Origin: an uncultured Lachnospiraceae bacterium
GTDB lineage: Bacteria > Bacillota > Clostridia > Lachnospirales > Lachnospiraceae
Direction of reading: 5' to 3'
DNA length: 64,000 bases
Assembly: GCA_945868435.1 (NCBI GenBank)
Contig: CAMBLG010000002.1
Coordinates: forward strand, 1-64,000
This document shows, one piece after another, positions 16,153 to 28,203 of the stretch. The translations under genes were made by a program, and so were the position numbers. The stretch's first letter is position 1. Each line of letters begins with the position of its first letter. The notes under the pieces were generated by a model. It ran no database searches, was not told the DNA's origin, and saw only the letters and a program-made list of their open reading frames with translations.

Positions 16153-16293
16153 TCAGCTCTGATGATGCGCATATTTTTCTTTCGTAGCCATTCCACCGCG
16201 GATATGACGCTCGGACTTGTTGATGTCCAGCACCTTTCTGGTCTCACTGGCCAGTGTGGGATTCACCTGCTCCAACCGCTCGGTCACGTCCTT
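16153..16293 (-). pseudogene. spoIIID: 3' part of spoIIID, separated by the element
   Basis: 46 codons plus TGA in the spoIIID frame, starting right after the 9-bp repeat. It reads KDVTERLEQVNP, then ASETRKVLDINKSERHIRGG and MATKEKY. These are the conserved second half of SpoIIID (compare the DLTERLPEINP and RHLRGG motifs of Bacillus SpoIIID). This basic C-terminal part contributes DNA binding in the family. It has no start of its own. The frame joins exactly, at the AAG after CAT, to the 5' part at 28044-28157. Confidence 0.92.
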
Positions 16294-17977
16294 ATGTACG
16301 GTTGTTGGTATTGGGAATGGTTTTATTTGTGATTACGGTTGTATTTGTTTTACCAGTTGCTTTAGTGTTTATTTTGACTTTTGTTTTACTGGTTTCTTTT
16401 GCTTCTTGGCTATCTTCTTGATGGTCGCCTCTGTTTTCCTCTTTGTTTTCGTATCCATCAATCAAGACGGTTTCGTCTAGTCCTAAGTCCCCGATAAGGC
16501 GCAGATAAATATCCACGTTACCATCCTTGTCCACTTCAATTTTCTGAATCAGGCGTTTTAGTTGAGTGTTGGTCATTTCGTGAACATCCGTAATATCTTC
16601 CATCTGCTTGAAGGTACTGTTAAGAATGGCTTCCAACTGCTCTCCTTTGGTCAGATGATAGGACACCATTTTCAGTTCATTTTCCAATCTATCAATCTCT
16701 TTTCTCATGCCACCGATTTTCTCATTCAATTCCTCTCTGGAAATCAAATCATCGGTGTACATATCCATATATTTCTCACGGGCCTTGCGCAGCTTGTTAA
16801 GTTCAGCGTTCAGTTCATTTTCATACTCGATGTTTTCGTCTTTGGCTTTATACACTCGTTGGAATTCTCTGATCACATGGTCGATTACTTTTTTCTTTTT
16901 GCTGAGAACATCCTGAAAATACTCCTGCAATACCTGAATCAGTTCTTCCTCATCCACAGTTACTGCATTCGGGCAGCTATCCGCACCACGACCATTGTGA
17001 CCGGAGCACACCCACCGGACATAAGTATTTTTATACTGACGGACAGTTCTGCGGAAGGACCAACCGCAATCCTTGCACTTAATTAGGGTAGAAAATAAAT
17101 ACTTGTTGCTCTGGCGTTCATGAGTAAGTTTAAAAGAATCATGACGACCTTTCAAAATATCCTGAGCCTTATCAAAAGTTTCATCATCAATAATACGAAG
17201 TTCCGGTCTGACTGTTACTAGCCATTCCGATTCATCTTTTTCTTTTCTCTGCCCGGTCAGGAAATCTGCAATTTCTTCTTTGCCGTTAATAATCTTTCCG
17301 GTATATATCTCATTGGTCAGAATACGGCATATAGAATTCTGGCTCCAGTTATTTCCTCGTTTTGTTTTGACTCCACGTTCATTAAGCATGTTTGCAATCT
17401 TCGCACCACCAAAGCCTTCTTCTGTGTACCACTCATACATCTGACGGATAACTTTTGCCTCTTCTTCATTGATAGATAGATTGAAATAATCACCAATGGT
17501 TTTATCGTATCCGTAAACAATGTTTGGAACTCGACCTTTTTCTGCATTCATCTTCTTACCAAATTTGATACGCTTAGAAGTGTTCGCACTTTCCTCTTGG
17601 GCTAATGCACCGAAGATAGTTAATACAAATTCAGAGTTACCCATGCTAGTCATGTTAGCAGTAAGGAACTGTGTCTCGATACCAAGCGCTTTCAGCTTAC
17701 GAACACTCTGTAATAAATCAACGGTATTTCTGGCAAAACGGGAAATATCCTTTACCACAACCATATCAAATAATCCTTTTTCAGCATCTGCAAGCATACG
17801 CTGGAATTCCTTACGATTCTTGATTTTGGTTCCGGAAATACCTTCATCTGCATATAATTTAATAAGGTTGTCCCCCGTACGTTTTGTATACTCCAAGAAA
17901 AACTCTTTCTGAGTCTCTAAGCTGTTGAGCTGATCTTCTTTATCTGTGGAAACTCGGCAGTATGCTGCGATGTTCAT
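16292..17977 (-). CDS. Large serine recombinase of the spoIIID element
   Basis: 561 residues from the ATG at 17977 (AGAAAGG upstream; the TTG at 17986 is less likely). Resolvase domain with nucleophile Ser10 in AYCRVSTDKEDQ and VVKDISRFARN, recombinase domain (about 160-270), zinc-ribbon with IKCKDCGWSF and WVCSGHNG, coiled-coil, then a Thr/Lys/Asn-rich tail. It is the expected enzyme for excision and integration, like SpoIVCA of skin. Its last codons run into the att core, and its TAA is completed by host spoIIID bases. In the excised circle the frame would continue 18 codons. Confidence 0.93.
   Translation of the reverse strand: MNIAAYCRVSTDKEDQLNSLETQKEFFLEYTKRTGDNLIKLYADEGISGTKIKNRKEFQRMLADAEKGLFDMVVVKDISRFARNTVDLLQSVRKLKALGIETQFLTANMTSMGNSEFVLTIFGALAQEESANTSKRIKFGKKMNAEKGRVPNIVYGYDKTIGDYFNLSINEEEAKVIRQMYEWYTEEGFGGAKIANMLNERGVKTKRGNNWSQNSICRILTNEIYTGKIINGKEEIADFLTGQRKEKDESEWLVTVRPELRIIDDETFDKAQDILKGRHDSFKLTHERQSNKYLFSTLIKCKDCGWSFRRTVRQYKNTYVRWVCSGHNGRGADSCPNAVTVDEEELIQVLQEYFQDVLSKKKKVIDHVIREFQRVYKAKDENIEYENELNAELNKLRKAREKYMDMYTDDLISREELNEKIGGMRKEIDRLENELKMVSYHLTKGEQLEAILNSTFKQMEDITDVHEMTNTQLKRLIQKIEVDKDGNVDIYLRLIGDLGLDETVLIDGYENKEENRGDHQEDSQEAKETSKTKVKINTKATGKTNTTVITNKTIPNTNNRT
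16294..16322. other. Attachment site, recombinase end of the element
   Basis: Contains the 9-bp core ATGTACGGT (16294-16302) and the arm GGGAATGGTT (16313-16322). The arm is the inverted copy of 28019-28028 at the opposite end. The left of the core is host spoIIID. Confidence 0.85.
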
Positions 17978-17989
17978 GTTTATCAACCT

Positions 17990-18017
17990 TTCTGTTAGAG
18001 TTGTTACGTTCTGTTAG
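17990..18017. repeat. Direct repeats in the recombinase leader
   Basis: Two copies of TTCTGTTAG (17990-17998 and 18009-18017), 19 bases apart, between the recombinase promoter and its start codon. Roughly two helical turns of spacing suggests a protein-binding site, perhaps a regulator of recombinase expression. Confidence 0.45.
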
Positions 18018-18021
18018 GACT

Positions 18022-18049
18022 ATTATACCCCTTTTGCAGAATAAAACAA
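18022..18049 (-). promoter_or_regulatory. Putative promoter of the serine recombinase
   Basis: Minus strand TTGTTT (18044-18049), 16-base spacer, TATAAT (18022-18027). It looks like a vegetative sigma-A promoter; I did not see an evident sigma-E or sigma-K sequence here. Confidence 0.6.
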
Positions 18050-18083
18050 TAAGAACTTCTGGTTTACCCCAGAAGTTCCTATT
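18048..18083 (-). terminator. Terminator of the SIR2-STAND gene
   Basis: Perfect 10-bp inverted repeat GAACTTCTGG (18053-18062 with 18069-18078), extended by AATA/TATT, followed on the minus strand by ATTGTTTTATT. It starts 4 bases after the stop codon and overlaps the -35 of the recombinase promoter. Confidence 0.7.
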
Positions 18084-18086
18084 GTT

Positions 18087-20528
18087 CTATGTATTCGAGC
18101 AAGCACGTAACAAAGCATTTTGCAGGCTATTATAACGTTCCCTATCTCTTTCATTTCTTAATCTTTTCAAGAATATCGTAATCTTGTTGTATGCCTCACC
18201 GCAATACTTTTGATACTGTGGCAACAAATTCTCTCGATTAATCTGTTCAACAAATCTTCTATCAACATATGTGTTAAATAAACGTATAGTTGTTTCTTCT
18301 CTATCTTTTTCCGAAAAAAGGGGTTGCATAGCTAAACGATGTGCTTTCTCAAAATCCTCACTTATATTTTTTGATTTGCCATATTTAATCTGCTCAAGAT
18401 AGATTCGAGCCTGTTGATTATCACATTGAAAAGGAACATTCACTTCATTCTCTCTAAATTTCCCATATGCAACATCAATATAATTTTGAGCAAGTTCAAA
18501 GTTCTTATAGCGCATACATGCTATAGAATACTGTAGCCAAAAAAAACTATTCTCTCTATAATACTCAATATCTTTGAGGGTATCATAATAATCCATAATA
18601 AAGCCAATATTGTCTCGTTTTCCATATAAAAAAGAATTCACATGTGAAAAAGAAACAATATTTTGTAATATACTTTCATATCTCACATTTTCAGAATATC
18701 TATTTGCATATATCGCAATCTTCTTCAGCGCATCAATAATCTCTGCAGAGTTATCGATGCCATTCAGAATGACCTTTGCTATAATTGACGATTTAATCCT
18801 GTAATCCATTTTCCCATTTGAGTCAAATGTTACCAATTCTTGAATAGCATCATTCTTAACAAATCGAACATCAAACATTCTTAGTTGATCTTCTATACTG
18901 CTTATATCCTTTATTCGTAATTCCAAGGACATGACTTTCGATATCAACATCAGAACAATAGCATGATAATCACTGGATTCCTCCTCTATCTTTTTGACTA
19001 TCTCATTAATCTTCTCTCTTATTGTCGTCGAATTGATAACTGCCAGCAAAATAGACTGTAATTCACAATTGCCCATTGTTTTTTTGGTTAATAACGCAAT
19101 TTTTTCTTTCATAGGCAGTGCTGTCATATTTCCCCAAAATTCATACCTTTGAAGAATATTATAACAATTCTGAATCTCCTTTCTACTCAATTTGTTGATA
19201 TCAAATATGACACTTTCCCCTGACTTAACATCAAACAACTCGCATGTCTCAATTAGTTTAACCTCATACACCATTGTTCTAGCCGTCAACACAAATGTTA
19301 AATCTTCGCAATTATGACGCGAAAAAATCCGCAAAACATCGATGTGATTAAAATAGTTTTCAATAATAACCACTTTAGGTCCTGTTTCCGACATAATCTT
19401 TTCAATATCAGCTATTTCTCGTTTGTTATTTTCTTCCAGTAGTGTATATACCGAAATCCCCTTTGAGTATAATTGTTGCTTCAGTTGTTCTAGAAAAATG
19501 CCTTTTCCATTTCCCAAGTTCGCATGAATAAAAACAAGCTTAATTCGCTTATCAATCGCATCAATAACATTATACACCTGATCCCTATATATTAGAGCTT
19601 TATATTTTCCTGCTTCTCTCCAAAATAGATTATTAGCTAATTCACCTCTCATCAACAACTCGTATACTTCTCTAGACGTCGCTTCTTTCTGGACATTTTT
19701 GCGAGAATTTCTTTCAAAACATATCAATCTATTCTCCTTATTTGTTTGAATAAACTCCGTCCTTTTGTATTCATCGAGTCCAATTGCAAATCTCTCTAGT
19801 CCAATATCTATAACAGTCCCAAATCTTCCCAGTTTCCGCTTCTTATCCTCAGTTATTCCTTCCTTTTCGATAAAAACCACTTTTTCTGCCAATGTTTTGT
19901 CTCGAAGTATTCTTTCCAAATCCAAATCATACTCTAGTGATAATCCTGTTACGATAATTCTTGTGGCACACTCTAAATCATCTTTTAACACACTTCCCCA
20001 CTGACTTGCTAATATATTATTCATAGACAAATAACTCGTTTTTGTAAGTTTGAATTCACTAAATAGACTCTTCTCATCAAGTCTGCCTAGATATCCATTT
20101 ATATATACACAGCACGCACCATAATCAATAAGTTTTTTAGTACTCTGATTAATCGTAACTGGCAGTAGTCTTCTGTCAGACGCCAATAATGGCACCTCAT
20201 CGTAATTCGTGGTATAGCATCGCATCCAAGGCATACTATATATTATTTTTACTGTTTCACTCAACTCACCAACATTAAACGTTTGCCTGAGCAGTTTAAT
20301 TAATTCATTTACCGTTTTGCGTTCAAGAAACGTTTCCGAAGCATCTTGCAAATCATATGGATTATCTGGGGCATTAATTCCGCATTGTTTATAAAGTAGT
20401 TCCGGTAACGCCGACCCAACTGGAAATGCATCCCCATTATGATTTTTCACACCAACATTAGCCCCAGATCCGGTAATTAAAACTGTATTTCCACTCAGTA
20501 TCTCTTTATAAATTTCTTTTATATTCAT
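18087..20528 (-). CDS. SIR2-STAND-TPR protein, candidate antiphage defence
   Basis: 813 residues. N-terminal SIR2-like domain (about 10-250) with the nucleotide loop LITGSGANVG and TTNYDEV (106-112). Where the family usually has the catalytic His-Gly, this protein reads YINGYLG (Asn144). A P-loop ATPase follows, with a variant Walker A HANLGNGKG (336-343) and Walker B-like KVVIIENY (about 383-390). The C-terminal ~250 residues are helical with TPR-like repeats. This order matches SIR2-STAND defence proteins (Avs5-type), in which sensing triggers NAD depletion. The missing His makes NADase activity uncertain. AAGGAG precedes the start. Confidence 0.7.
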   Translation of the reverse strand: MNIKEIYKEILSGNTVLITGSGANVGVKNHNGDAFPVGSALPELLYKQCGINAPDNPYDLQDASETFLERKTVNELIKLLRQTFNVGELSETVKIIYSMPWMRCYTTNYDEVPLLASDRRLLPVTINQSTKKLIDYGACCVYINGYLGRLDEKSLFSEFKLTKTSYLSMNNILASQWGSVLKDDLECATRIIVTGLSLEYDLDLERILRDKTLAEKVVFIEKEGITEDKKRKLGRFGTVIDIGLERFAIGLDEYKRTEFIQTNKENRLICFERNSRKNVQKEATSREVYELLMRGELANNLFWREAGKYKALIYRDQVYNVIDAIDKRIKLVFIHANLGNGKGIFLEQLKQQLYSKGISVYTLLEENNKREIADIEKIMSETGPKVVIIENYFNHIDVLRIFSRHNCEDLTFVLTARTMVYEVKLIETCELFDVKSGESVIFDINKLSRKEIQNCYNILQRYEFWGNMTALPMKEKIALLTKKTMGNCELQSILLAVINSTTIREKINEIVKKIEEESSDYHAIVLMLISKVMSLELRIKDISSIEDQLRMFDVRFVKNDAIQELVTFDSNGKMDYRIKSSIIAKVILNGIDNSAEIIDALKKIAIYANRYSENVRYESILQNIVSFSHVNSFLYGKRDNIGFIMDYYDTLKDIEYYRENSFFWLQYSIACMRYKNFELAQNYIDVAYGKFRENEVNVPFQCDNQQARIYLEQIKYGKSKNISEDFEKAHRLAMQPLFSEKDREETTIRLFNTYVDRRFVEQINRENLLPQYQKYCGEAYNKITIFLKRLRNERDRERYNSLQNALLRACSNT

Positions 20529-20668
20529 ATCTTTCTCCTTATCTTATCGTACTAATTCGCATATATTTTCCTTCTACACAAATGCCATTCCTGTCTCTTT
20601 TGCCAATAATCTTCCAAATAGTCTCTAACCCCATAATTAACTATCATTTCTTTTGTTCCTCCCTACAA

Positions 20669-21385
20669 CTAAACAAACATGTATTTTTGTTTCTCCGGCA
20701 AATACTTCTCCAATTCCTCTACCAACTCATACACCTTGGTTCCCGGAGCGATCTCTGTTGGTGTCTTACCTTCTCCATCCTTTATAATTCGCTTCGCATA
20801 TCGAATCGCTAGCCTCGGATTCCCATACTCCATCAGAATCTCAAAGATATTATTCATATTCTTGTGATACTTTCCGATTCCTAGTTCTTTAAACTTGTCA
20901 TTCAAAAATGCAATATACTCTGTTCTATGGTTATTCGCCGTGTAATATGCAAAGTGAAGCAGAAACCAAAACTCAATACACTCGTTACTCCATGCAGTAT
21001 GGTATTGCAATTCCGGATTTTCTTTGTTTAAACTCTCCGCACGCTCTACAACACCATTAAATCGTTCTGGTGGGAAGCTGTCCTTATCATAAACGCACCA
21101 GATTTGTCCCTTTTTGATTTTATTCTTCTTTACATAGTCTTCTGCCATTCCGATTACTCGCATGGTTTCTGCCTGACAAGGCTCAATCTCTATCAAGACC
21201 ATATCCTTATAGATTGGATTTTCCTCTATCAATTTCTTGAAGCCCGCAAAATACAAAGGTTCCGTCTGCTGTCCTTCACAGAAGATATAGTACCGGTACT
21301 GCTTCATCTCCAAATATTCTTGGCGACGTTTCTTCTTCCAATCAAGCTTGCTTGATTTTTTTCCGATTCCGGCTTTTTTAGGCAT
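20669..21385 (-). CDS. RloB-family protein (AbiLii-like)
   Basis: 238 residues. A basic N-terminus is followed by a TOPRIM-like core: IFCEGQQTEPLYF with the acidic Glu, VYDKDSFP with the Asp-x-Asp pair, then SNECIEFWFLLHF, a recurrent RloB feature. It overlaps the upstream RloA gene by 8 bases, so the two are translationally coupled. RloA/RloB pairs correspond to the lactococcal abortive-infection system AbiL; RloB is probably the nuclease partner. The start follows GGGGGAAAG. Confidence 0.82.
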   Translation of the reverse strand: MPKKAGIGKKSSKLDWKKKRRQEYLEMKQYRYYIFCEGQQTEPLYFAGFKKLIEENPIYKDMVLIEIEPCQAETMRVIGMAEDYVKKNKIKKGQIWCVYDKDSFPPERFNGVVERAESLNKENPELQYHTAWSNECIEFWFLLHFAYYTANNHRTEYIAFLNDKFKELGIGKYHKNMNNIFEILMEYGNPRLAIRYAKRIIKDGEGKTPTEIAPGTKVYELVEELEKYLPEKQKYMFV

Positions 21386-22601
21386 TGACTTTCCCCCAAT
21401 CTATAATTCTTCTGAGGTACGGATCAGCACCGTACTTACCTTCAAGATACTGCTTATCGAACTTGGCATCTTTTCTGACAGCTTCACCTTTTTCATTCTT
21501 GAACTCTACCAGAGAATACAACTTGGAATTCTGCGCATTCCCCTTTGCCACAAACCAAATCTCATCTCTACGGAATACTTCGCTGTTCATGGTAGATAAA
21601 TCATGGGATGTGAATATTAGCTGTGCTTTATGTCTGTTGATGTTCATATCATTAAACATCATGATAATATGACGCAGCAACACCGGGTGAATCTTCGCAT
21701 CCAATTCATCAATCACAAGCACAGTTCCATCAAGCAAACTTGCCGCTATAAACGGAAGCAGACCAAACAACTTCTTTGTTCCGCTGGATTCATCAGATAG
21801 GCTAAGCTCTGTTTCCACATCACCTACAAGGTGTTTTGTAAACACTTCTATCCTATCGTTCTCTTTTTCTTCCACTCTGAAATCAACGATATCCAAATCC
21901 ATTTCCTGAATCATTTCAAGCATCAGATGCTTCACATCTTCTGATGTGGATATTGCCATTCTAAGCTCCTGAATAGGATTACCATAATTCAAGAAATCCA
22001 CGCCGAACTCGAACCAATTCAATACATCCTTTACTACTGCATTTCCCTTATAGGCGATACCTAAATAGGAAAGCAAGGTAAGTGTCTTAGATAAATCATC
22101 ACTGACTTTCAGTTTCGCAAATGCCCCCTTTAAAACAATCCCTTTATCGTCTCTTGTGTATAATGCAGAACGTCTTCCGGTCTCAAGCTTCACTCTGTCC
22201 AAGCTCTCATATATAACCACATCACGCTTCACATGCAAGATATATCTGTACTCTGCAGACTCTGTACGGAAAAACAGTTCAAACTCTGTTGGTTCATTTT
22301 TACTATCCGAAAAAGCAAATGGCTCGACGATAATTCTTTTTTGTAAAAGAACCTTATCTTCGTTGTCTTCTGTGGCATACAACGGGCGCAGAATTTTTGC
22401 AACCAATGTGTGCAACGCTGCCAGAACATTGGATTTTCCTCCACCATTAGGACCGTAAATGGCAGACACCGGTAAATACATCTCACCATCCTGGTCTTTG
22501 ATTATTCTATCTTCATGCTCCGAGATTGCTGCTGCCTGCATATCAAAGGTCACTTCATCTCTTATACTCTTGTAATTCTTCACAGTAAACTGACATAACA
22601 T
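21378..22601 (-). CDS. RloA-family AAA15 ATPase (AbiLi-like)
   Basis: 407 residues. SMC/OLD-type ATPase with the opening FTVKNYKSIRDEVTFDM, Walker A YGPNGGGKSN (49-58), a signature-like LSDESSGTKKLFG, Walker B TVLVIDELDAKIHP and switch IFTSHD. The ATPase probably senses phage infection and licenses the RloB effector encoded in the overlapping next gene. GGAGGG precedes the start. Together with the SIR2-STAND gene downstream it makes the left half of the element a small defence island. Confidence 0.85.
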   Translation of the reverse strand: MLCQFTVKNYKSIRDEVTFDMQAAAISEHEDRIIKDQDGEMYLPVSAIYGPNGGGKSNVLAALHTLVAKILRPLYATEDNEDKVLLQKRIIVEPFAFSDSKNEPTEFELFFRTESAEYRYILHVKRDVVIYESLDRVKLETGRRSALYTRDDKGIVLKGAFAKLKVSDDLSKTLTLLSYLGIAYKGNAVVKDVLNWFEFGVDFLNYGNPIQELRMAISTSEDVKHLMLEMIQEMDLDIVDFRVEEKENDRIEVFTKHLVGDVETELSLSDESSGTKKLFGLLPFIAASLLDGTVLVIDELDAKIHPVLLRHIIMMFNDMNINRHKAQLIFTSHDLSTMNSEVFRRDEIWFVAKGNAQNSKLYSLVEFKNEKGEAVRKDAKFDKQYLEGKYGADPYLRRIIDWGKVNA

Positions 22602-22743
22602 ATCTTTTACCCTCCATTCTATCTATATTATATCCCGTTTTTCTCATTTCGCAACATATATTTGAGATTTTGTCTCATATTTTGTTTTGAAAATGCAGTT
22701 TTACCTCTCATAGAAACCCTCTCATAGAAAAAGCAAGGCATCT

Positions 22744-22968
22744 CTACCTTGCTTTTCTCCGTCTTATACTCACCGATTCTTCCACCTTTTCTATCTCCTC
22801 CGGTTCTGCTATGTATTCGCCATCTTCGACACACCGTGCTGCAACTTCTTCAATCGCGCGTTCCACTTTGCCTGCATTTGCTTCAATCAAAAGCTTACAC
22901 AAGAAATTAGCGGTATCTTCCGCCGAATTTGGATTATGAAAGCGATAATTCAATTTTCTTTGTTTCAA
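22744..22968 (-). CDS. Small conserved element protein
   Basis: 74 residues starting at a TTG with a very strong AAGGAGGTGGAG leader. The opening RKLNYRFHNPNSAEDTANFL and the following LLIEANAGKVERAIEE recall short proteins I have seen near serine recombinases in Lachnospiraceae elements. The C-terminus is acidic then basic. Function unknown. It lies between the defence genes and a long hairpin-rich gap, a place where a regulator or directionality factor might sit. Confidence 0.55.
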   Translation of the reverse strand: MKQRKLNYRFHNPNSAEDTANFLCKLLIEANAGKVERAIEEVAARCVEDGEYIAEPEEIEKVEESVSIRRRKAR

Positions 22969-23499
22969 GCGGAATCTCCACCTCCTTCTCTTGCTTGTCT
23001 TACTTTTTCAATACTATGAGATTGATTCTCAGGTTAGACCTATTTTCGTTTTTCATTAAGTACTTAGGGTTCGAAAAAGCTGATTACAAATTTTATGCAA
23101 TATATTTTGAAAAAAATATGGTCAAGCGCATTGACAAAATGTGTCAATGCAGTGACCACGCAAAAATAGAGGTCAATTGCGTTGACCTCTAATATTCCTT
23201 GATTTTATGCGGTTTTTAAGAGATTGGGGCAAGTGTCATGACCGTTGACCACACTACAAAATAAAGAAGAACAGGATACGCCTAAAGTTGCATTGTCAAC
23301 TCGGCTGACGCTTCCAAACTCCTATGTCGTTTGCTTTAGGGGATCCCTATGACCCATGTTTATACACCTTTGGTCTCGGGGACCAAAAGAACCTTTAACC
23401 TTTTAGCCCCTGCTGAATAAGTGGTTGCCATGGCAACAAGTCTACCACATGCTACTTATGTAAAGAAAGTGGTGCAAATTTTTACACAAAGCTTCCTTA
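22969..23499. other. Noncoding, hairpin-rich region with clustered TTGAC motifs
   Basis: About 530 bases with no credible gene. It has several inverted repeats: an imperfect long one around 23112-23158 (TGGTCA...TGACCA arms), GAGGTCAA/TTGACCTC (about 23170-23190), TTGGTC/GACCAA (about 23371-23387) and the palindrome GTTGCCATGGCAAC (about 23422-23435). TTGACC or GGTCAA half sites recur at least four times in 140 bases. It looks like a control or replication/transfer region, or a structured RNA; the sequence alone does not decide. Confidence 0.45.
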
Positions 23500-23715
23500 C
23501 TATTTCCTTACTTTGACCAACAAAAAATCCGGCTTATGGAATAAATCTTTGTAATCAGGATACTTCTCAAGCAATTCCGTCGTAGGGAAAGGTTCAATCA
23601 TCTTCTCAATGGAAGCAGGTATTTCAAATAAATTATTGGCGTTTACTTCATTGTCCCTTATTTTCTTATACCCCTCAAAAAAGATTTCATTATCATATAT
23701 ATTCTGCTGTGCCAT
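23500..23715 (-). pseudogene. Methyltransferase with in-frame internal deletion
   Basis: 71 codons. The first ~34 residues (MAQQNIYDNEIFFEGYKKIR, then NEVNANNLFEIPA) are the usual start of a class I SAM-dependent methyltransferase. The last ~37 (IEKMIEPFPTTELLEKYPDY and the tail FHKPDFLLVKVRK) are the usual end. The SAM-binding core (about 170 residues with a DLGCG-type motif) is missing and the two ends are joined in frame. The product cannot be a working methyltransferase. Confidence 0.7.
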
Positions 23716-23727
23716 TCTAATTCTCCT

Positions 23728-24120
23728 CTACAATCTATCCCTAATTTTCTCTGCAACCCTCTCAGAATACTCTGACTCACCCTCAGGATATGTCCAACCA
23801 AAGCCATAATTATCGTATCTCGGAAATACATGAAAATGAGCATGTCCATAATCGCAAAACTTTCCACCGTTTTGCATAGTACTATAGCCGTCATTTCCAT
23901 AAATATACTTCAATGCGACAACAATCTTTCTCGCCACACCCATAATATCTATGATTTCATCATCTGACAACTTTTCTATAGAATCAACGTGCTGCTTTGG
24001 TACAATAAGTACATGACCTTCATGAATAGGATCTATATCCAAAAATGAAATCACCTGCTCATCTTCATATACAACATAAGCAGGTAACTATTTATTTATT
24101 ATCTTGCAAAAATCACACAT
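23728..24120 (-). pseudogene. HIT-family hydrolase with a nonsense codon
   Basis: From the ATG at 24120 the frame reads MCDFCKIINK, then TAG (24090-24088), then LPAYVVYEDEQVISFLDID and a complete HIT domain with the histidine triad HAHFHVFPR. The normal protein has Glu or Gln at the stop position. Downstream translation could restart at the GTG at 24054, giving 108 residues that keep the triad but lose the N-terminal Cys pair. The 5' end overlaps the C15-like gene by 8 bases. Confidence 0.75.
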
Positions 24121-24574
24121 TTTCAATTTCCTCCATACTCTTCACAATTTTCTCCATCGTATGTTCGGACATATTCTTTAGTGATGGAATATGAATAAAC
24201 ACTGCTTTGCCAGAAACTTTTTGTAGCATATAAAAGTATGCAGCATTGCACAGGTATTTTGTTGGTATCTCTGAGATAACACACTGAACACCACTCTCTA
24301 TCAGGCACCTGCACATTTCATCACAGTCTATCTTGGTGGCTCTTTCTTCACCGTCCCATTCTGCAATACTCTCAATCCTAACTGTATTCTTTAAGCTTGT
24401 ATCTAAGCCAAACATTACAACCAAGTCATATTTGTCTGTAACATTCATAATATCTTTTTTCAAACCATCATATGAATTGGTCAAAAACAATTTCTGTCCA
24501 GAAATCTTGGATAGCAAATAATACGAAGAGTTGTTTTTCCCTTTGAATCCTGTACATAAAACTTTCATTTTCAC
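24113..24574 (-). CDS. Pyroglutamyl-peptidase (C15)-like protein
   Basis: 153 residues starting at a GTG with GGGAGAATTG upstream. It resembles a short peptidase C15 protein: VLCTGFKGKNNSS at the start, a strand-turn VVMFGLD, the catalytic-type Cys in YLCNAAYFYML and a His in VFIHIPSL. Typical pyroglutamyl peptidases have about 200-215 residues, so this is a reduced version that may act on another substrate. It overlaps the HIT gene and follows the kinase gene by 15 bases, so the group is transcribed together. Confidence 0.6.
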   Translation of the reverse strand: MKMKVLCTGFKGKNNSSYYLLSKISGQKLFLTNSYDGLKKDIMNVTDKYDLVVMFGLDTSLKNTVRIESIAEWDGEERATKIDCDEMCRCLIESGVQCVISEIPTKYLCNAAYFYMLQKVSGKAVFIHIPSLKNMSEHTMEKIVKSMEEIENV

Positions 24575-24589
24575 ACTTACAATTCTCCC

Positions 24590-25378
24590 TTAAAATAGTT
24601 CATCCAACAAAATATAATACCTTATCTTTTTCCAGTCAGGCTTGACGTCAAGTTTTTCAAAGAACTTATCAGTGTCTAAACCTTCACAGGCTGCTCTACC
24701 ATATATTCCTTTAAAATTATTGCTAAGACTTCTGTAACAAAGAGCAATATCCTGATATCTGTCTGCAATACAAATTTTACCCAAATCAATAAAACCGGAT
24801 ACATCCTTACCCATAAAGAAAATATTAGGCAAACATAAATCCCCATGAGAAAGCACCAAATCCTCCTCCGGACGATTTTCTATCAACCACTCCAATAACT
24901 CTTTTGGATTTTTAAAACCATCTCCCCCAAAAGTATCCGGCTGAACATTTTCCATATCCACTAAATCATGTTCCACATTATATCTTGCCATTTCTAATTT
25001 TTTATCAAGGTTTATAATACTTGGACAATCTGATATGTCAACTTCCCATAACATATGAATCGCCTTTGCAAGCAAATCCGTCAATAACTCTGGAGCCTTC
25101 ATATAGTAATCATCGCATGCCATTGCACCACTAATTCTTGACATAAGTAAATAACTTTTCGAATCATCTTTTTCATAAGCAAGAACTTCAGGTATTAAAA
25201 GTTTCCCTTGAAGCCATTTCATCATTAAATACTCATTCTCTGATTCACTACCTGCTGCTTGAATTTTTAGAACCTTATCCTCAAACACATAAACTGAACT
25301 GCCGGACATTCCAACATTGTCTATAATATATTTTTCATTACCAATTATTTTTTGTATTTTACTCGGTATTTGTATCAT
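24590..25378 (-). CDS. APH(3')-like aminoglycoside phosphotransferase
   Basis: 262 residues, the length of APH(3') enzymes. Kinase signatures are present: ATP-site Lys in DKVLKIQ, catalytic loop LVLSHGDLCLPNIFF with Asp180 and Asn185, metal-binding SGFIDLG with Asp198, and the C-terminus KPDWKKIRYYILLDELF, which closely follows the end of APH(3')-III. If active it would phosphorylate kanamycin/neomycin-type drugs. Overall divergence and the loss of some substrate-loop residues mean resistance is not certain. Preceded by GAGGATAACAAA. Confidence 0.8.
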   Translation of the reverse strand: MIQIPSKIQKIIGNEKYIIDNVGMSGSSVYVFEDKVLKIQAAGSESENEYLMMKWLQGKLLIPEVLAYEKDDSKSYLLMSRISGAMACDDYYMKAPELLTDLLAKAIHMLWEVDISDCPSIINLDKKLEMARYNVEHDLVDMENVQPDTFGGDGFKNPKELLEWLIENRPEEDLVLSHGDLCLPNIFFMGKDVSGFIDLGKICIADRYQDIALCYRSLSNNFKGIYGRAACEGLDTDKFFEKLDVKPDWKKIRYYILLDELF

Positions 25379-25430
25379 TTTGTTATCCTCAAATTAAATG
25401 TTTTTTCATTCAGCAACAAAACTTCATATT

Positions 25431-25919
25431 TTATCTATCTCTCTCTTCGATAACATGTATCGTTTGCCTTTCACCGATAATCCTATCTATACATTCTCTT
25501 ATAAATGTTGGCTTAATTTCATTTTCTTTTATTTCATCTATTGGTAGCCACACCAACTCTTCGCCTTCATCTGTCATATTTTTGCAGACATCCAAGCCAT
25601 TATCCAAAATATTCATGTAATAATAAAACTCTATTGTATGGCAGTTAAGTCCATCAATTTTTCCGCCTTTGCCTTTAAAGAAATTTTCGCATACAACCGC
25701 AAGATGATCAACACATGCAGTTATACCTGATTCCTCAAGTATCTCTCTTTCTATACACGACTCGGATGTTTCGCCCAAGTGAACTCCACCACCAATCATA
25801 TAATAGTAATCACCTATAGCACTCTTAACAAAAAGCATTTTATTATCTTTAATCAAGATTCCGCCTGTGCGATATCTAAACCAATTATCTCCTTTTTCAA
25901 AACCGCAATCGTACTTCAT
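25431..25919 (-). CDS. NUDIX hydrolase of the spoIIID element
   Basis: 162 residues from the ATG at 25919 (GGGGGC upstream). Complete NUDIX box GGGVHLGETSESCIEREILE followed by ESGI. The N-terminal RYRTGGILIKDNKMLFVKS matches the NUDIX gene at 12694-13176 in the other island. Its promoter seems to be the TATAAT beside the hairpin repeat at 25963-26002. Substrate unknown. Confidence 0.85.
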   Translation of the reverse strand: MKYDCGFEKGDNWFRYRTGGILIKDNKMLFVKSAIGDYYYMIGGGVHLGETSESCIEREILEESGITACVDHLAVVCENFFKGKGGKIDGLNCHTIEFYYYMNILDNGLDVCKNMTDEGEELVWLPIDEIKENEIKPTFIRECIDRIIGERQTIHVIEERDR

Positions 25920-25962
25920 ATATGCCCCCAGCAATTATATATTTCCAACTTCATCATTTCCC

Positions 25963-26002
25963 ATTATATCAAAAACACTCCCGGATTTCCACCGGGAGTG
26001 TT
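25963..26002 (-). repeat. Hairpin-promoter repeat, copy 1
   Basis: Inverted repeat AACACTCCCGG (25974-25984 with 25992-26002), loop ATTTCCA, followed on the minus strand by TTTTTGA and TATAAT (25963-25968). It can end transcription of the S41 fragment and start that of the NUDIX gene. See copies at 26494 and 27935. Confidence 0.7.
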
Positions 26003-26039
26003 TTTATCTATTCATTCTCTGTTTTAAAATAAAATGCTG

Positions 26040-26459
26040 TCAAATTCTGACCGTTGCCAAATAAATGTTTTCATGGGGTATTTTGTCAGCGAAGGCAACT
26101 ATTAAGTCTTCAATAGACGCTCCTTCCACGCTCATTATCCGCGCATGTTTCGGAATATCCTCATATCCATCTTTCAAGATTAGCTCATTATCATCAGTTC
26201 CACTCCAACAACATTTTAGATTCAAGCATAAATCCTGTGGTGTATAGGGAACCTCTATATTCGTGTGTCCATCTTGGAAAAAGGTCGTTAATTCTGTTGC
26301 TACATCTATAAAACTGTCATAATCATACACCACTTCGCATATGGCTATATATAATGCTTCTAATTCAGCTTTTTTCTTCTCGACCATTTTTATAGACGGA
26401 TGATTCAATAATGCTGAATATAAATATTCTAGATCTTCTTTATAGTCGTTTGTTTCCAT
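26040..26459 (-). pseudogene. N-terminal fragment of an S41-type peptidase
   Basis: 139 codons. The segment FFQDGHTNIEVPYTP and the following strand pattern (RIMSVEGASIEDLI) match the N-terminal part of tail-specific (S41) peptidases. The frame ends at KIPHENIYLATVRI; the PDZ-distal catalytic domain with its Ser/Lys is missing. So the gene has lost its 3' two thirds. It is followed by hairpin repeat copy 1. Confidence 0.6.
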
Positions 26460-26493
26460 TTATACACCTACTTAATCTCCAGATTTATTTTCT

Positions 26494-26534
26494 ATTATAC
26501 CAAAAACACTCCCAAGTTTCTACCTGGGAGTGTT
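26494..26534 (-). repeat. Hairpin-promoter repeat, copy 2
   Basis: Inverted repeat AACACTCCCA (26505-26514 with 26525-26534) with loop AGTTTCTACC, followed on the minus strand by TTTTTGG and TATAAT (26494-26499). Located between the ECF sigma gene and the S41 fragment. Confidence 0.7.
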
Positions 26535-26576
26535 CCTACTTTTACCCTATCTGATTAAAATAAGTATTTTGAATAA

Positions 26577-27848
26577 TTAAAGAATATAATCCGTAATACA
26601 ATCATACCAATGTACATAAGTCGTTCCATTTACTACGATCTTCTCATTATCTGGAAGTTGCTCACTCCACAATTTTTTATATCGGTCTATTGCCCAGTCG
26701 TCGCGATTAAATCGGCGCCACAAAATTGTCCTGCCATTTTTGTCGAGATACTGTTCCGACACAACTCCACAATTGTAGGTTTCGATATCCATTACACACA
26801 CCGTATCATAACTTTTCCCGTTAATCGTAACTAAATATCTTCCTACAATATCCAACAAGAAATCTTTCTTTATGCTTGTTACAACCGAACCAACTCTTTG
26901 AATATCAGACTTTTGAGTCAGATTTGTCTCGTTACCGCAATTATCTTCACCAAATCCCCAATTCAGCATGAATTCATCACCATCGAGAAAAGTAATATAA
27001 TTTCGAACATCTCCATCGTTTCTGAGTGTTGCAAGGTATCGACAATGGGTATCTGTAAGCTGAGCAACAAATGTGCGATTAATTACATCGGTCTTATCCG
27101 AATATGCTGCCTCTCTTGCCGTTAATTCAACACCTTCAATTCCATGCACTTTAGCTTTTCCTGTCACTTGCATATCATATATATGACTACATTTTCGAGA
27201 TGGAATATCATACATACCCCATGACAACTTTTCTCCAAGTTTCGGCACCAAAAACCATCCCATAAGTTCTTCCCACTTAACATCAAATGCCTTCTTATCA
27301 CTTACTTCAATTTTATACTCCGGTATAAATTCCGGTAATCTCTTCATAGTATTCTCTCCTTTCGATATTCCAGTATAATATGGATACTTGTTTTTAAAGT
27401 TTTGTTTTGCAGTATGTAATCTGCTTTTAACTGTTCCTATCGGAACATTAAGCCTTTTCGCAATCTCTGCCTGTGGTATTTCCTTCCAAAAGAATAAATA
27501 TAATATCTGTTTATCCTTATCCCCTAGCATCTCAATTGTATCCCTTACCAAGCTTATTTCAGCAGTTCCATATCTACTGTCAGACTGATGCAGTTCAGTC
27601 AATTCTTCCAAAGGAATTTCAAATTGATTAGCTATCCCACGAAAATAATCATTGCATTTATTTCGCGCAATACTTATTATCCATGCTTTAAAAGAATCTC
27701 TACTTTTCAGTTGAGCAAATTTCTGATATGCAGTCAAATAAACTTCTTGCAGTATATCATCTGCATCTGCTTTAGAATTAATTTTAAACCTTACAAATCG
27801 TTCTACTGAAATCTTCTCTGCATCTAACAATACTTCAAATTCATCCAC
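26577..27848 (-). CDS. ECF sigma factor with a long C-terminal domain
   Basis: 423 residues from a GTG at 27848, with GGGAGGTG upstream. The first ~165 residues are an ECF sigma factor: region 2 (RFVRFKINSKADADDILQEV, then FKAWIISIARNKCNDYFR) and region 4 (LYLFFWKEIPQAEIAKRLNV, PIGTVKSRLHTAKQNF). The rest (about 260 residues, starting MKRLPEFIPEYKIEV) is rich in aromatic strands and carries no motif I know. It may be a ligand-sensing or regulatory domain, as in other C-terminally extended ECF factors. An internal ATG with a good site could also make the C-terminal part alone. Confidence 0.75.
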   Translation of the reverse strand: MDEFEVLLDAEKISVERFVRFKINSKADADDILQEVYLTAYQKFAQLKSRDSFKAWIISIARNKCNDYFRGIANQFEIPLEELTELHQSDSRYGTAEISLVRDTIEMLGDKDKQILYLFFWKEIPQAEIAKRLNVPIGTVKSRLHTAKQNFKNKYPYYTGISKGENTMKRLPEFIPEYKIEVSDKKAFDVKWEELMGWFLVPKLGEKLSWGMYDIPSRKCSHIYDMQVTGKAKVHGIEGVELTAREAAYSDKTDVINRTFVAQLTDTHCRYLATLRNDGDVRNYITFLDGDEFMLNWGFGEDNCGNETNLTQKSDIQRVGSVVTSIKKDFLLDIVGRYLVTINGKSYDTVCVMDIETYNCGVVSEQYLDKNGRTILWRRFNRDDWAIDRYKKLWSEQLPDNEKIVVNGTTYVHWYDCITDYIL

Positions 27849-27934
27849 ATTAACACCTCCCATCTATAGCTTATTGATAACCGGTTTCACTTATATAGAC
27901 GTTCAGAAACATCAAAAGGTTCATTCCTTATAAA

Positions 27935-27972
27935 ATTATACAAAAAACACTCCCAAATTTCCACCTGAGAGT
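27935..27972 (-). repeat. Hairpin-promoter repeat, copy 3
   Basis: Degenerate copy: ACACTCCC (27947-27954) pairs with GAGAGTG (27967-27973) with one mismatch; loop AAATTTCCACCT. TATAAT follows on the minus strand (27935-27940). It precedes the ECF sigma gene, and no element gene lies before it, so here it can only act as promoter or boundary. Confidence 0.6.
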
Positions 27973-28004
27973 GCCTCTACCTTATCCCTATTCAATTGCC
28001 CATA

Positions 28005-28157
28005 TCATCTTACTCCGTAACCATTCCCTATTGTTACAACTGCATGTACGGTAGATTTAGATATGCCAAAATGACTGGCTGCCTGTCGTACGGTTGTGTT
28101 ATTTTCAATAATATAGTTAGCGATTTCCACTACCCGCTCTTCAATATAAGTTTTCAA
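28005..28157 (-). pseudogene. spoIIID: 5' part of spoIIID, cut by the element
   Basis: Start TTG at 28157. The 38 codons up to the core encode KTYIEERVVEIANYIIENN and the helix-turn-helix TVRQAASHFGISKSTVH, the N-terminal half of SpoIIID. The frame then enters the element and adds 12 foreign codons (AVVTIGNGYGVR) before a stop. The protein in this state keeps the HTH but lacks the basic C-terminal half. SpoIIID is a mother-cell regulator acting with sigma-E and needed for sigK expression. Non-ATG starts are usual for this gene. Confidence 0.93.
28019..28052. other. Attachment site, distal end of the element
   Basis: Holds arm AACCATTCCC (28019-28028) and core ATGTACGGT (28044-28052). Together with 16303-16322 it makes a 54-bp symmetric site. 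The right of the core is host spoIIID. Confidence 0.85.
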
Positions 28158-28161
28158 AAAA

Positions 28162-28203
28162 ATACCCCTGCATTGTCTGTTTGTACAGTTTATGCAAGGG
28201 TAT
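28162..28203 (-). terminator. Hairpin and U-tract abutting the spoIIID start
   Basis: Minus strand arms ATACCCTTGCAT (28203-28192) and ATGCAGGGGTAT (28173-28162), one mismatch, then seven T running directly into the TTG start at 28157. It can terminate the small membrane-protein gene upstream. The only candidate ribosome site (GGGG) is inside the right arm. A weak sigma-E-like -10 (CATACCCT, 28204-28197) overlaps the left arm. Confidence 0.6.

Follow-up and report, generated by a model that had tools for sequence, protein, structure and literature searches.

A mobile element interrupting spoIIID in Lachnospiraceae as a candidate mother-cell excision switch

Can a bacterium that carries the sporulation regulator gene spoIIID in two separated pieces still make SpoIIID? 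The question is raised by the window, the whole 64,000-nucleotide stretch analyzed here from an uncultured Lachnospiraceae bacterium (contig CAMBLG010000002.1), in which spoIIID is interrupted after codon 38. The 5′ half (28044..28157, minus strand) carries codons 1 to 38, begins with TTG, is open, and ends in ...SKSTVH; the 3′ half (16153..16293, minus strand) begins KDVTERL and carries codons 39 to 84 and the stop. A 9-bp direct repeat, ATGTACGGT, lies at both junctions (28044..28052 at the 5′ half and 16294..16302 at the 3′ half), and these are its only two plus-strand copies in the window. Fusion of the flanks at the repeat yields an open 84-residue SpoIIID with a TTG start and no internal stop. 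An initial annotation had described the two halves with the repeat at each end, an uninterrupted 84-codon gene on joining, an element of 11.76 kb, and a large serine recombinase at one of its ends. The halves and repeat were re-found and the open join was computed, the interval measures 11,750 bp from repeat to repeat, and the recombinase lies at the 3′-half end (16292 to 17977 or 17986, minus strand). The interval 16294-28043 is very probably a mobile element at spoIIID codon 38 that leaves the chromosome in the mother cell, as skin leaves sigK, by means of the recombinase and a small-protein factor. The observations behind this reading are the split itself, empty sites, a conserved junction, a universal gene pair, promoter patterns, retained sporulation genes, open halves, and horizontal spread; from them, we infer excision, its restriction to the mother cell, vegetative expression of the recombinase, the role of the small protein, and sigma-E control.

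The junctions in the window consist of a short direct repeat bordered by inverted repeats, as in developmental gene-intervening elements. Just within the element, the arm ACCATTCCC (28020..28028, plus strand) is the inverted partner of GGGAATGGT (16313..16321, plus strand), which would make the joint of an excised circle a palindromic attP. At the junction, spoIIID bases complete the recombinase stop codon. Profile PF12116 matched both halves in the window's genome (2.57 Mb in 37 contigs, 83.7% complete) with scores of 76.8 and 57.9 bits, each above the cut-off. Additional spoIIID copies, which the initial annotation had suggested looking for, were absent from this genome at E ≤ 0.001 given its 83.7% completeness, and no second copy was found in G343, a single-contig genome with spoIIID split by a 17.8-kb interval (G numbers denote genomes in this analysis and L numbers loci).

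Empty sites and further interrupted ones were found among relatives. Within the genus, SpoIIID was matched in 53 of 62 genomes, mostly as a single complete copy. The intact gene that the initial annotation proposed to seek in sister genomes is present at the syntenic locus of G061 (L014), where an uninterrupted spoIIID is 91% identical to that of the window over 81 residues; the upstream ABC gene of the window (84% identity) and its downstream hydrolase (65% over 81 residues in the stretch) are also there. Seven genus genomes have both halves and no complete copy (G000, G004, G011, G015, G017, G033, and G034), and in G042 and G020, where no 3′ half was found, the 5′ half runs into sequence resembling an element. 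Using the window's recombinase as the query identified 72 named loci, 69 of which also contain a SpoIIID 3′ half. The 3′ half lies within approximately 250 bp of the recombinase match in 68 loci and at 2.4 kb in L081; in L093, one of the three loci lacking it, a contig end cuts inside the junction. By NCBI rank, the loci belong to Lachnospiraceae (39), Oscillospiraceae (7), Clostridiaceae (2), Eubacteriaceae (1), and other Eubacteriales (2), with 20 unranked and one labeled Parabacteroides, which is taken for a mis-binned contig.

The split is also common when genomes are surveyed for SpoIIID. Fifty of the 67 element hosts were searched, and 35 carry the two halves without a complete copy. The isolates Lachnospiraceae bacterium 3-2, Mordavella massiliensis An582, Clostridium sp. 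Marseille-P3244, and Lachnoclostridium sp. An118 are among the hosts with both halves. A complete copy occurs in three others, alongside a 3′ half in G074, with a 5′ fragment in G102, and alone in G109. These three metagenome-assembled genomes (MAGs) were considered as possible mixtures of excised and integrated forms, and this was rejected because the stretches with complete copies gave no DNA match to the element loci at E ≤ 1e-5; the G074 copy is a divergent paralogue (54%) and was rejected as an excised form. In a family-level sample, 247 of 397 genomes, including that of the window, match SpoIIID. Thirty of the 247 were picked for partial or multiple matches and re-examined, and at least 20 of the SpoIIID-bearing genomes have both halves and no complete copy (21 counting that of the window); eight of the 30 have one half or a partial match, and G135 and G455 also have a complete paralogue. 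Three pairs of genomes share coordinates (G142/G068, G399/G067, and G503/G062), so the host and family samples overlap. The largest observed interval between halves on one contig is 75 kb, in G217 (L254/L255). In G455 and G135, the paralogue precedes the 5′ half of the split gene by no more than approximately 1 kb.

The position of the break is conserved. Complete elements were collected from 24 genomes (sizes of 4.5-29 kb), and after 3′-half alignments offset by gaps were reset, all 24 break spoIIID after codon 38 (STVH|KD). This shared codon boundary, together with the whole gene in a syntenic relative, makes the split more than chance. The exact stretch shared by the two junctions ranges from 0 to 10 bp across these elements. 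The dinucleotide CA, the first two bases of His codon 38, is present at both junctions in all 24, with the third base varying in some; because it is common to all junctions, CA is taken as the probable crossover dinucleotide. Arms resembling AACCGTTC/GAACGGTT recur in many of the 24 elements. At L033 (6896-8614, G004), the recombinase frame does not stop at the junction but continues in the SpoIIID 3′ half, forming a fusion frame of 573 codons.

Clustering of the open reading frames (ORFs) of the 24 elements placed a recombinase in all 24 and a small protein in 23. Other clusters represented in more than half of the elements consist of minus-strand frames, and those with a member in the window fall inside the recombinase. 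A profile added the small protein of the remaining element, from G081, and since the profile was built from the other elements, G081 is its sole independent hit. The small protein is thus the only gene besides the recombinase common to all 24 complete elements. It was found at 49 of the 72 named loci, and many of the other 23 are cut by a contig end near the recombinase. In the window, it is a 74-residue protein (22744..22968, minus strand) with a TTG start and the ribosome-binding site AGGAGGTGG; most others have about 53 to 79 residues. Among the 62 genus genomes, the profile matched 10, eight of which have a split or element-cut spoIIID (G000, G004, G011, G015, G017, G033, G034, and G042); weak matches near spoIIID in G044 and G048 are remnants, and the profile found none in G020.

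We propose, from its association with the recombinase, that the 74-residue protein is a recombination directionality factor. Alternatively, it might serve another core function, as a regulator, antitoxin, or maintenance protein, with excision needing something else; this is unlikely, if still worth weighing. It would fit the lack of sequence similarity to any known factor, a distance from the recombinase that may reach several kilobases, as in the window, and a copy in G033 with no recombinase in the 3.2 kb seen. However, no other accompanying gene is shared by every complete element, a diverged copy adjoins the 46%-identical recombinase of G135, and the known factors of such elements are themselves small and mutually dissimilar (PMC10747680, PMC5595907).

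Patterns upstream of the element genes bear on when each might be expressed. The small gene in the window is preceded by a candidate sporulation-type promoter, CTAA-N15-CATAG (23011..23037, minus strand), the recombinase by a TATAAT box (18022..18027, minus strand), and spoIIID by a promoter with a CATAAA box (28183..28194, minus strand) taken as the type used by a mother-cell sigma factor. The region upstream of the small gene is conserved among elements and ends in TCATAG.ATTG. Counts were compared with first-order Markov shuffles (300 rounds). The pattern [AC]TA[AT]-N15-CATA[CGT], defined on the very sequences used for the count, precedes 37 of 46 distinct small genes, a set that omits 11 hits lacking an NPN/DPN motif (shuffles: mean 0.32, maximum 2). 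At <80% identity, 18 of 27 small genes have it (mean 0.20, maximum 3). The same pattern was found upstream of 21 of 30 intact spoIIID genes and 1 of 24 recombinases (shuffles mean 0.20). With spacing relaxed to N14-16, it was found at 28 of 30 intact and 16 of 23 split spoIIID genes, at none of 24 recombinases, and at 6 of 297 other element ORFs (shuffles mean 5.0). TATAAT precedes 15 of 24 recombinases (shuffles: mean 2.1, maximum 6), 2 of 53 small genes, and 49 of 297 other element ORFs (shuffles mean 21.8). In Bacillus subtilis, sigma-E switches on spoIIID (PMC517825), so the pattern common to the small gene and spoIIID points to a mother-cell sigma factor, probably sigma-E rather than sigma-K. 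Regions upstream of SpoIVA were tried as a sigma-E control and dropped, as 5 of 30 were recovered and the starts were unclear. In the window, repeats like CTAACAGAACG and CTAACAGAAAGG (GTAACAGAACG in relatives) lie downstream of the recombinase TATAAT box (18007-18027, minus strand); they resemble the attP arm, so the recombinase may bind its own promoter. Across loci L003-L032, many genus members have an inverted repeat like CCCCTGCA...TGCAGGGG spanning the spoIIID -10 box and leader, which could be an operator or a leader hairpin.

These patterns also bear on the possibility that the element excises occasionally in any growing cell, without developmental control, leaving the excised fraction alone to sporulate. 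Horizontal spread, varied cargo, and the presence of two elements at other sites would all suit such behavior, and a precedent exists in the Clostridium botulinum yabG element, whose excised and integrated forms coexisted at every time tested (PMC10747680). Uncontrolled excision is nevertheless quite improbable, given the specificity of the sporulation-type pattern for the small gene (37/46, against 1/24 for recombinases) and the finding that, with looser spacing, other element ORFs carry it about as often as their shuffles do.

In a rival reading, an ordinary mobile island has disabled spoIIID, and thereby sporulation in the strain. One half alone should not yield a DNA-binding protein, and a few genomes resemble this scenario: G018 (L044) has a decayed 5′ half, and SpoIVA was not found in that genome (68% complete); only a 3′ half was found in 12 of the 50 hosts searched, and SpoIVA is missing from three. 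Yet SpoIVA was matched in 47 of the 50 element-bearing genomes, 46 above the cut-off (the misses being G076, G091, and G101), and in all seven genus genomes with both halves. Two matches to the sigK profile at E ≤ 1e-30 were found in six of these seven split genus genomes, including G000, and one in G017; none of the 62 genomes, nor the B. subtilis control, passes that profile's own cut-off, and the two matches are taken for sigK-like and sigE-like genes only. G000 thus retains SpoIVA and two open sigK-profile matches, the sigK-like one being a single 207-codon frame without a stop. In contrast, the four genus genomes without SpoIIID that are at least 96% complete (G001, G009, G013, and G038) also lack SpoIVA and any sigK-profile match at that threshold, and this joint loss is the picture expected of real loss of sporulation. 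Loss of sporulation in sister strains, which the initial annotation had named as evidence against a switch, was not what the sister genomes revealed, as sporulation genes are present in them.

The halves themselves remain open. None of the 24 complete split genes has an internal stop, and the codons checked were free of stops in all 89 distinct 3′ halves. Of the 5′ halves (66 distinct), those of L044 (G018) and L045 (G044) are degenerate, as is an additional partial copy in L255; those not ending in His are L043, at a contig edge, and L275, which ends in CAA. G044 carries a dead element that retains about 24 spoIIID codons and a remnant of the small gene; the 10 kb read gave no recombinase match. 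Approximately 4 kb beyond this element, on the same strand, lies a complete spoIIID with its own promoter. The ratio of nonsynonymous to synonymous substitutions was set aside as evidence: medians were 0.23 and 0.21 for the split halves (34 and 11 usable pairs) and 0.11 and 0.09 for intact genus genes (105 and 34 pairs), all well below 1, at depths that are not comparable, and the signal is possibly older than the insertions. The initial annotation had placed a skin-like switch beside a disabling island as equally possible. The retained SpoIVA, the open halves, the pairing of the recombinase with a small gene that has a sporulation-type promoter, and the situation in G044 favor the switch, and a disabling island is very unlikely.

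In the proposed switch, codon 38 of spoIIID would serve as the attachment site of the integrated element 16294-28043, and the large serine recombinase, probably made in growing cells, would integrate it. The recombinase would be unable to excise the element alone and would need a directionality factor. Because SpoIIID cannot act before excision, that factor must be driven without it; activation of sigma-E in the mother cell would bring on the small protein from its spoIIID-like promoter. The element would then leave as a circle, restoring spoIIID exactly in the cell that needs SpoIIID and that later dies, while the forespore would retain the split gene and the element. The switch would gate SpoIIID and, through it, sigK, one tier earlier than skin.

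Several observations weigh against this proposal, among them the definition of the promoter pattern on the counted sequences and the omission of 11 hits from its count, both described above. The exact CATA pattern is absent from 9 of the 27 representative small genes, six of these from non-Lachnospiraceae hosts, and a -35-like partner to the -10 box of the recombinase was found in 6 of 24 (shuffles: mean 0.71, maximum 4). Searches of Pfam, NCBIfam, and PHROGs gave the small protein no family at a useful E-value, and its predicted structure is a single helix (pTM, the predicted template modeling score, 0.40), so its role rests on association; the second copy in G033 is on another contig, where the 3.2 kb seen contain no recombinase and no spoIIID. 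The genomes used here, one per species and many of them MAGs, showed neither an excised joint nor a circle. Two of the 72 loci, L105 and L109, hold close recombinase relatives at other chromosomal sites, and spoIIID is complete in the genome with L109. Among the 12 hosts in which only the 3′ half was found, G078 has two such halves and G087 an additional weak match; [Ruminococcus] torques ATCC 27756 likewise has the 3′ half only, with no 5′ half in the 25.7 kb upstream on the contig. Some Lachnospiraceae (L261, L262, and L144) have a divergent complete SpoIIID paralogue with 54-58% identity.

The distribution of the element was compared with host relationships. Recombinase distances track those of SpoIVA only moderately across 53 genomes (Spearman 0.47; best of 500 permutations, 0.30). 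The recombinases of G065 and G067 are 98.4% identical and their SpoIVA proteins 48% identical. As a check for mis-binning, the SpoIIID 3′ halves that share a contig with these recombinases were compared, and 30 of 40 residues agree; since the 3′ halves differ next to near-identical recombinases, these comparisons show, at the sequence level, that the element family moves horizontally between genera. Neither this mobility nor the wide distribution of the family had been recognized in the initial annotation. A search for a vehicle confirmed no recombinase relatives in the viral_contigs collection, and all matches in phage and plasmid collections (585 and 709 records) were below 60% identity. MT838016 (L279, MT838016.1), the best of the "phage" records, was rejected as a vehicle because it is a scaffold with a recombinase followed by a SpoIIID 3′ half and looks like bacterial chromosome.

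Other recombinases occupy the same place. A second kind, 45-46% identical to that of the window, was found in G166, G380, G455, and G135. In a third kind, found in G187, G243, and G282, serine recombinases stand in tandem, two or three together (21-24% identity), and spoIIID is broken one codon further on, between Lys39 and Asp40; G457 has the Lys39/Asp40 junction too, on a contig that ends ahead of any recombinase. Taken together, we lean toward a broader interpretation in which spoIIID is a general developmental attachment site in gut Clostridia, with at least three kinds of recombinase converging on codons 38-40 and a transmissible two-gene switch, made up of the recombinase and a new family of directionality factors, that spread between genera, gates the step from sigma-E to SpoIIID and sigma-K, and carries defense and other cargo through the spore. 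The ends of the tandem-recombinase elements (L256-L259 and L266-L268) look inverted (GGTGTCATAAT and ATTATGACACC or similar), and the junction at which the 3′ half of G463 (L260) starts is unusual and unlike that of either kind.

Among known systems, the closest match is skin in sigK of Clostridioides difficile, where the recombinase CD1231 is constitutive and the 72-residue directionality factor CD1234 is controlled by sigma-E and SpoIIID (PMC5025042). The two systems share a serine recombinase and a mother-cell regulator as target and, if the roles proposed above are right, would also share a small directionality factor behind a sigma-E promoter and a constitutive recombinase. In the window, however, the target is spoIIID, upstream of sigK, and the dependence of CD1234 on SpoIIID would be impossible before excision; no phage gene was found among the window proteins scanned, and the sigK-like match of G000 is one open frame. 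The gin element in gerE of Bacillus cereus is described as nonphage, with a serine recombinase and a 42-residue directionality factor (GirC, GirX; PMC5595907). It resembles the window element in its variable cargo, in targeting a very small mother-cell regulator gene, and in pairing serine recombination with a small protein, which in the window is a candidate factor, but it has three serine recombinases with sporulation-specific expression, whereas the window has one, with a TATAAT box, a different target, and different hosts. The tandem-recombinase elements of G187, G243, and G282 may be nearer to gin. Serine-type recombinases also act in yin (C. botulinum yabG), SPbeta (spsM), vfbin (spoVFB), and skin of B. 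subtilis (sigK) (PMC10747680, PMC5595907); unlike the window element, these are described as prophages or prophage-like, and none is placed in spoIIID. The sporulation excision targets given there are sigK, spsM, spoVFB, gerE, and yabG (PMC10747680), and a search of open-licence PMC papers found, in the titles, abstract openings, and passages covered, no report of an element-interrupted spoIIID. Within this kind of element, that of the window has a new target, a new small-protein family, no phage genes among the proteins scanned, and a wide distribution. If the proposed switch is correct, excision acts on the mother-cell regulator directly below sigma-E and would account for sporulation in gut bacteria whose regulator gene looks broken. 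Genomes with split spoIIID would call for caution before being labeled asporogenous, and mobile cargo could hide in a gene required solely by a cell bound to die. The recombinase, candidate factor, and natural attB/attP sites would form a ready set for use as a resource.

The remaining element genes in the window, all on the minus strand, are the recombinase and cargo. The recombinase (16292..17986) has 564 residues from a TTG start, with an ATG start (MNIAAYCR) at 17977, and contains Resolvase, Recombinase, and Zn_ribbon_recom domains (Pfam). Next to it is an 813-residue protein (18087..20528) with a weak nSTAND NTPase match below the cut-off, followed by RloB/AbiLii-like (20669..21385) and AbiLi-like AAA ATPase (21378..22601) proteins whose clusters recur in 10 and 11 of the 24 elements, respectively. 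Beyond the small gene are a HIT-domain protein (23728..24054), a 153-residue protein with a weak Peptidase_C15 match below the cut-off (24113..24574), an APH phosphotransferase family member (24590..25378), a NUDIX protein (25431..25934), a 139-residue protein without a Pfam match (26040..26459), and a protein combining an extracytoplasmic function (ECF)-type sigma factor domain with a long C-terminal part (26577..27863). No phage structural or lysis genes were found with Pfam among 10 window proteins and 10 proteins from other elements. Cargo identified among the latter 10 includes a MatE transporter, two-component systems, a permease, a rolling-circle Rep protein, and one tyrosine integrase, in the element of G343. 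A rolling-circle replication initiator is encoded in the 6.4-kb element of G004 (L033, 5360-6448), and its presence suggests that the circle of that element might replicate.

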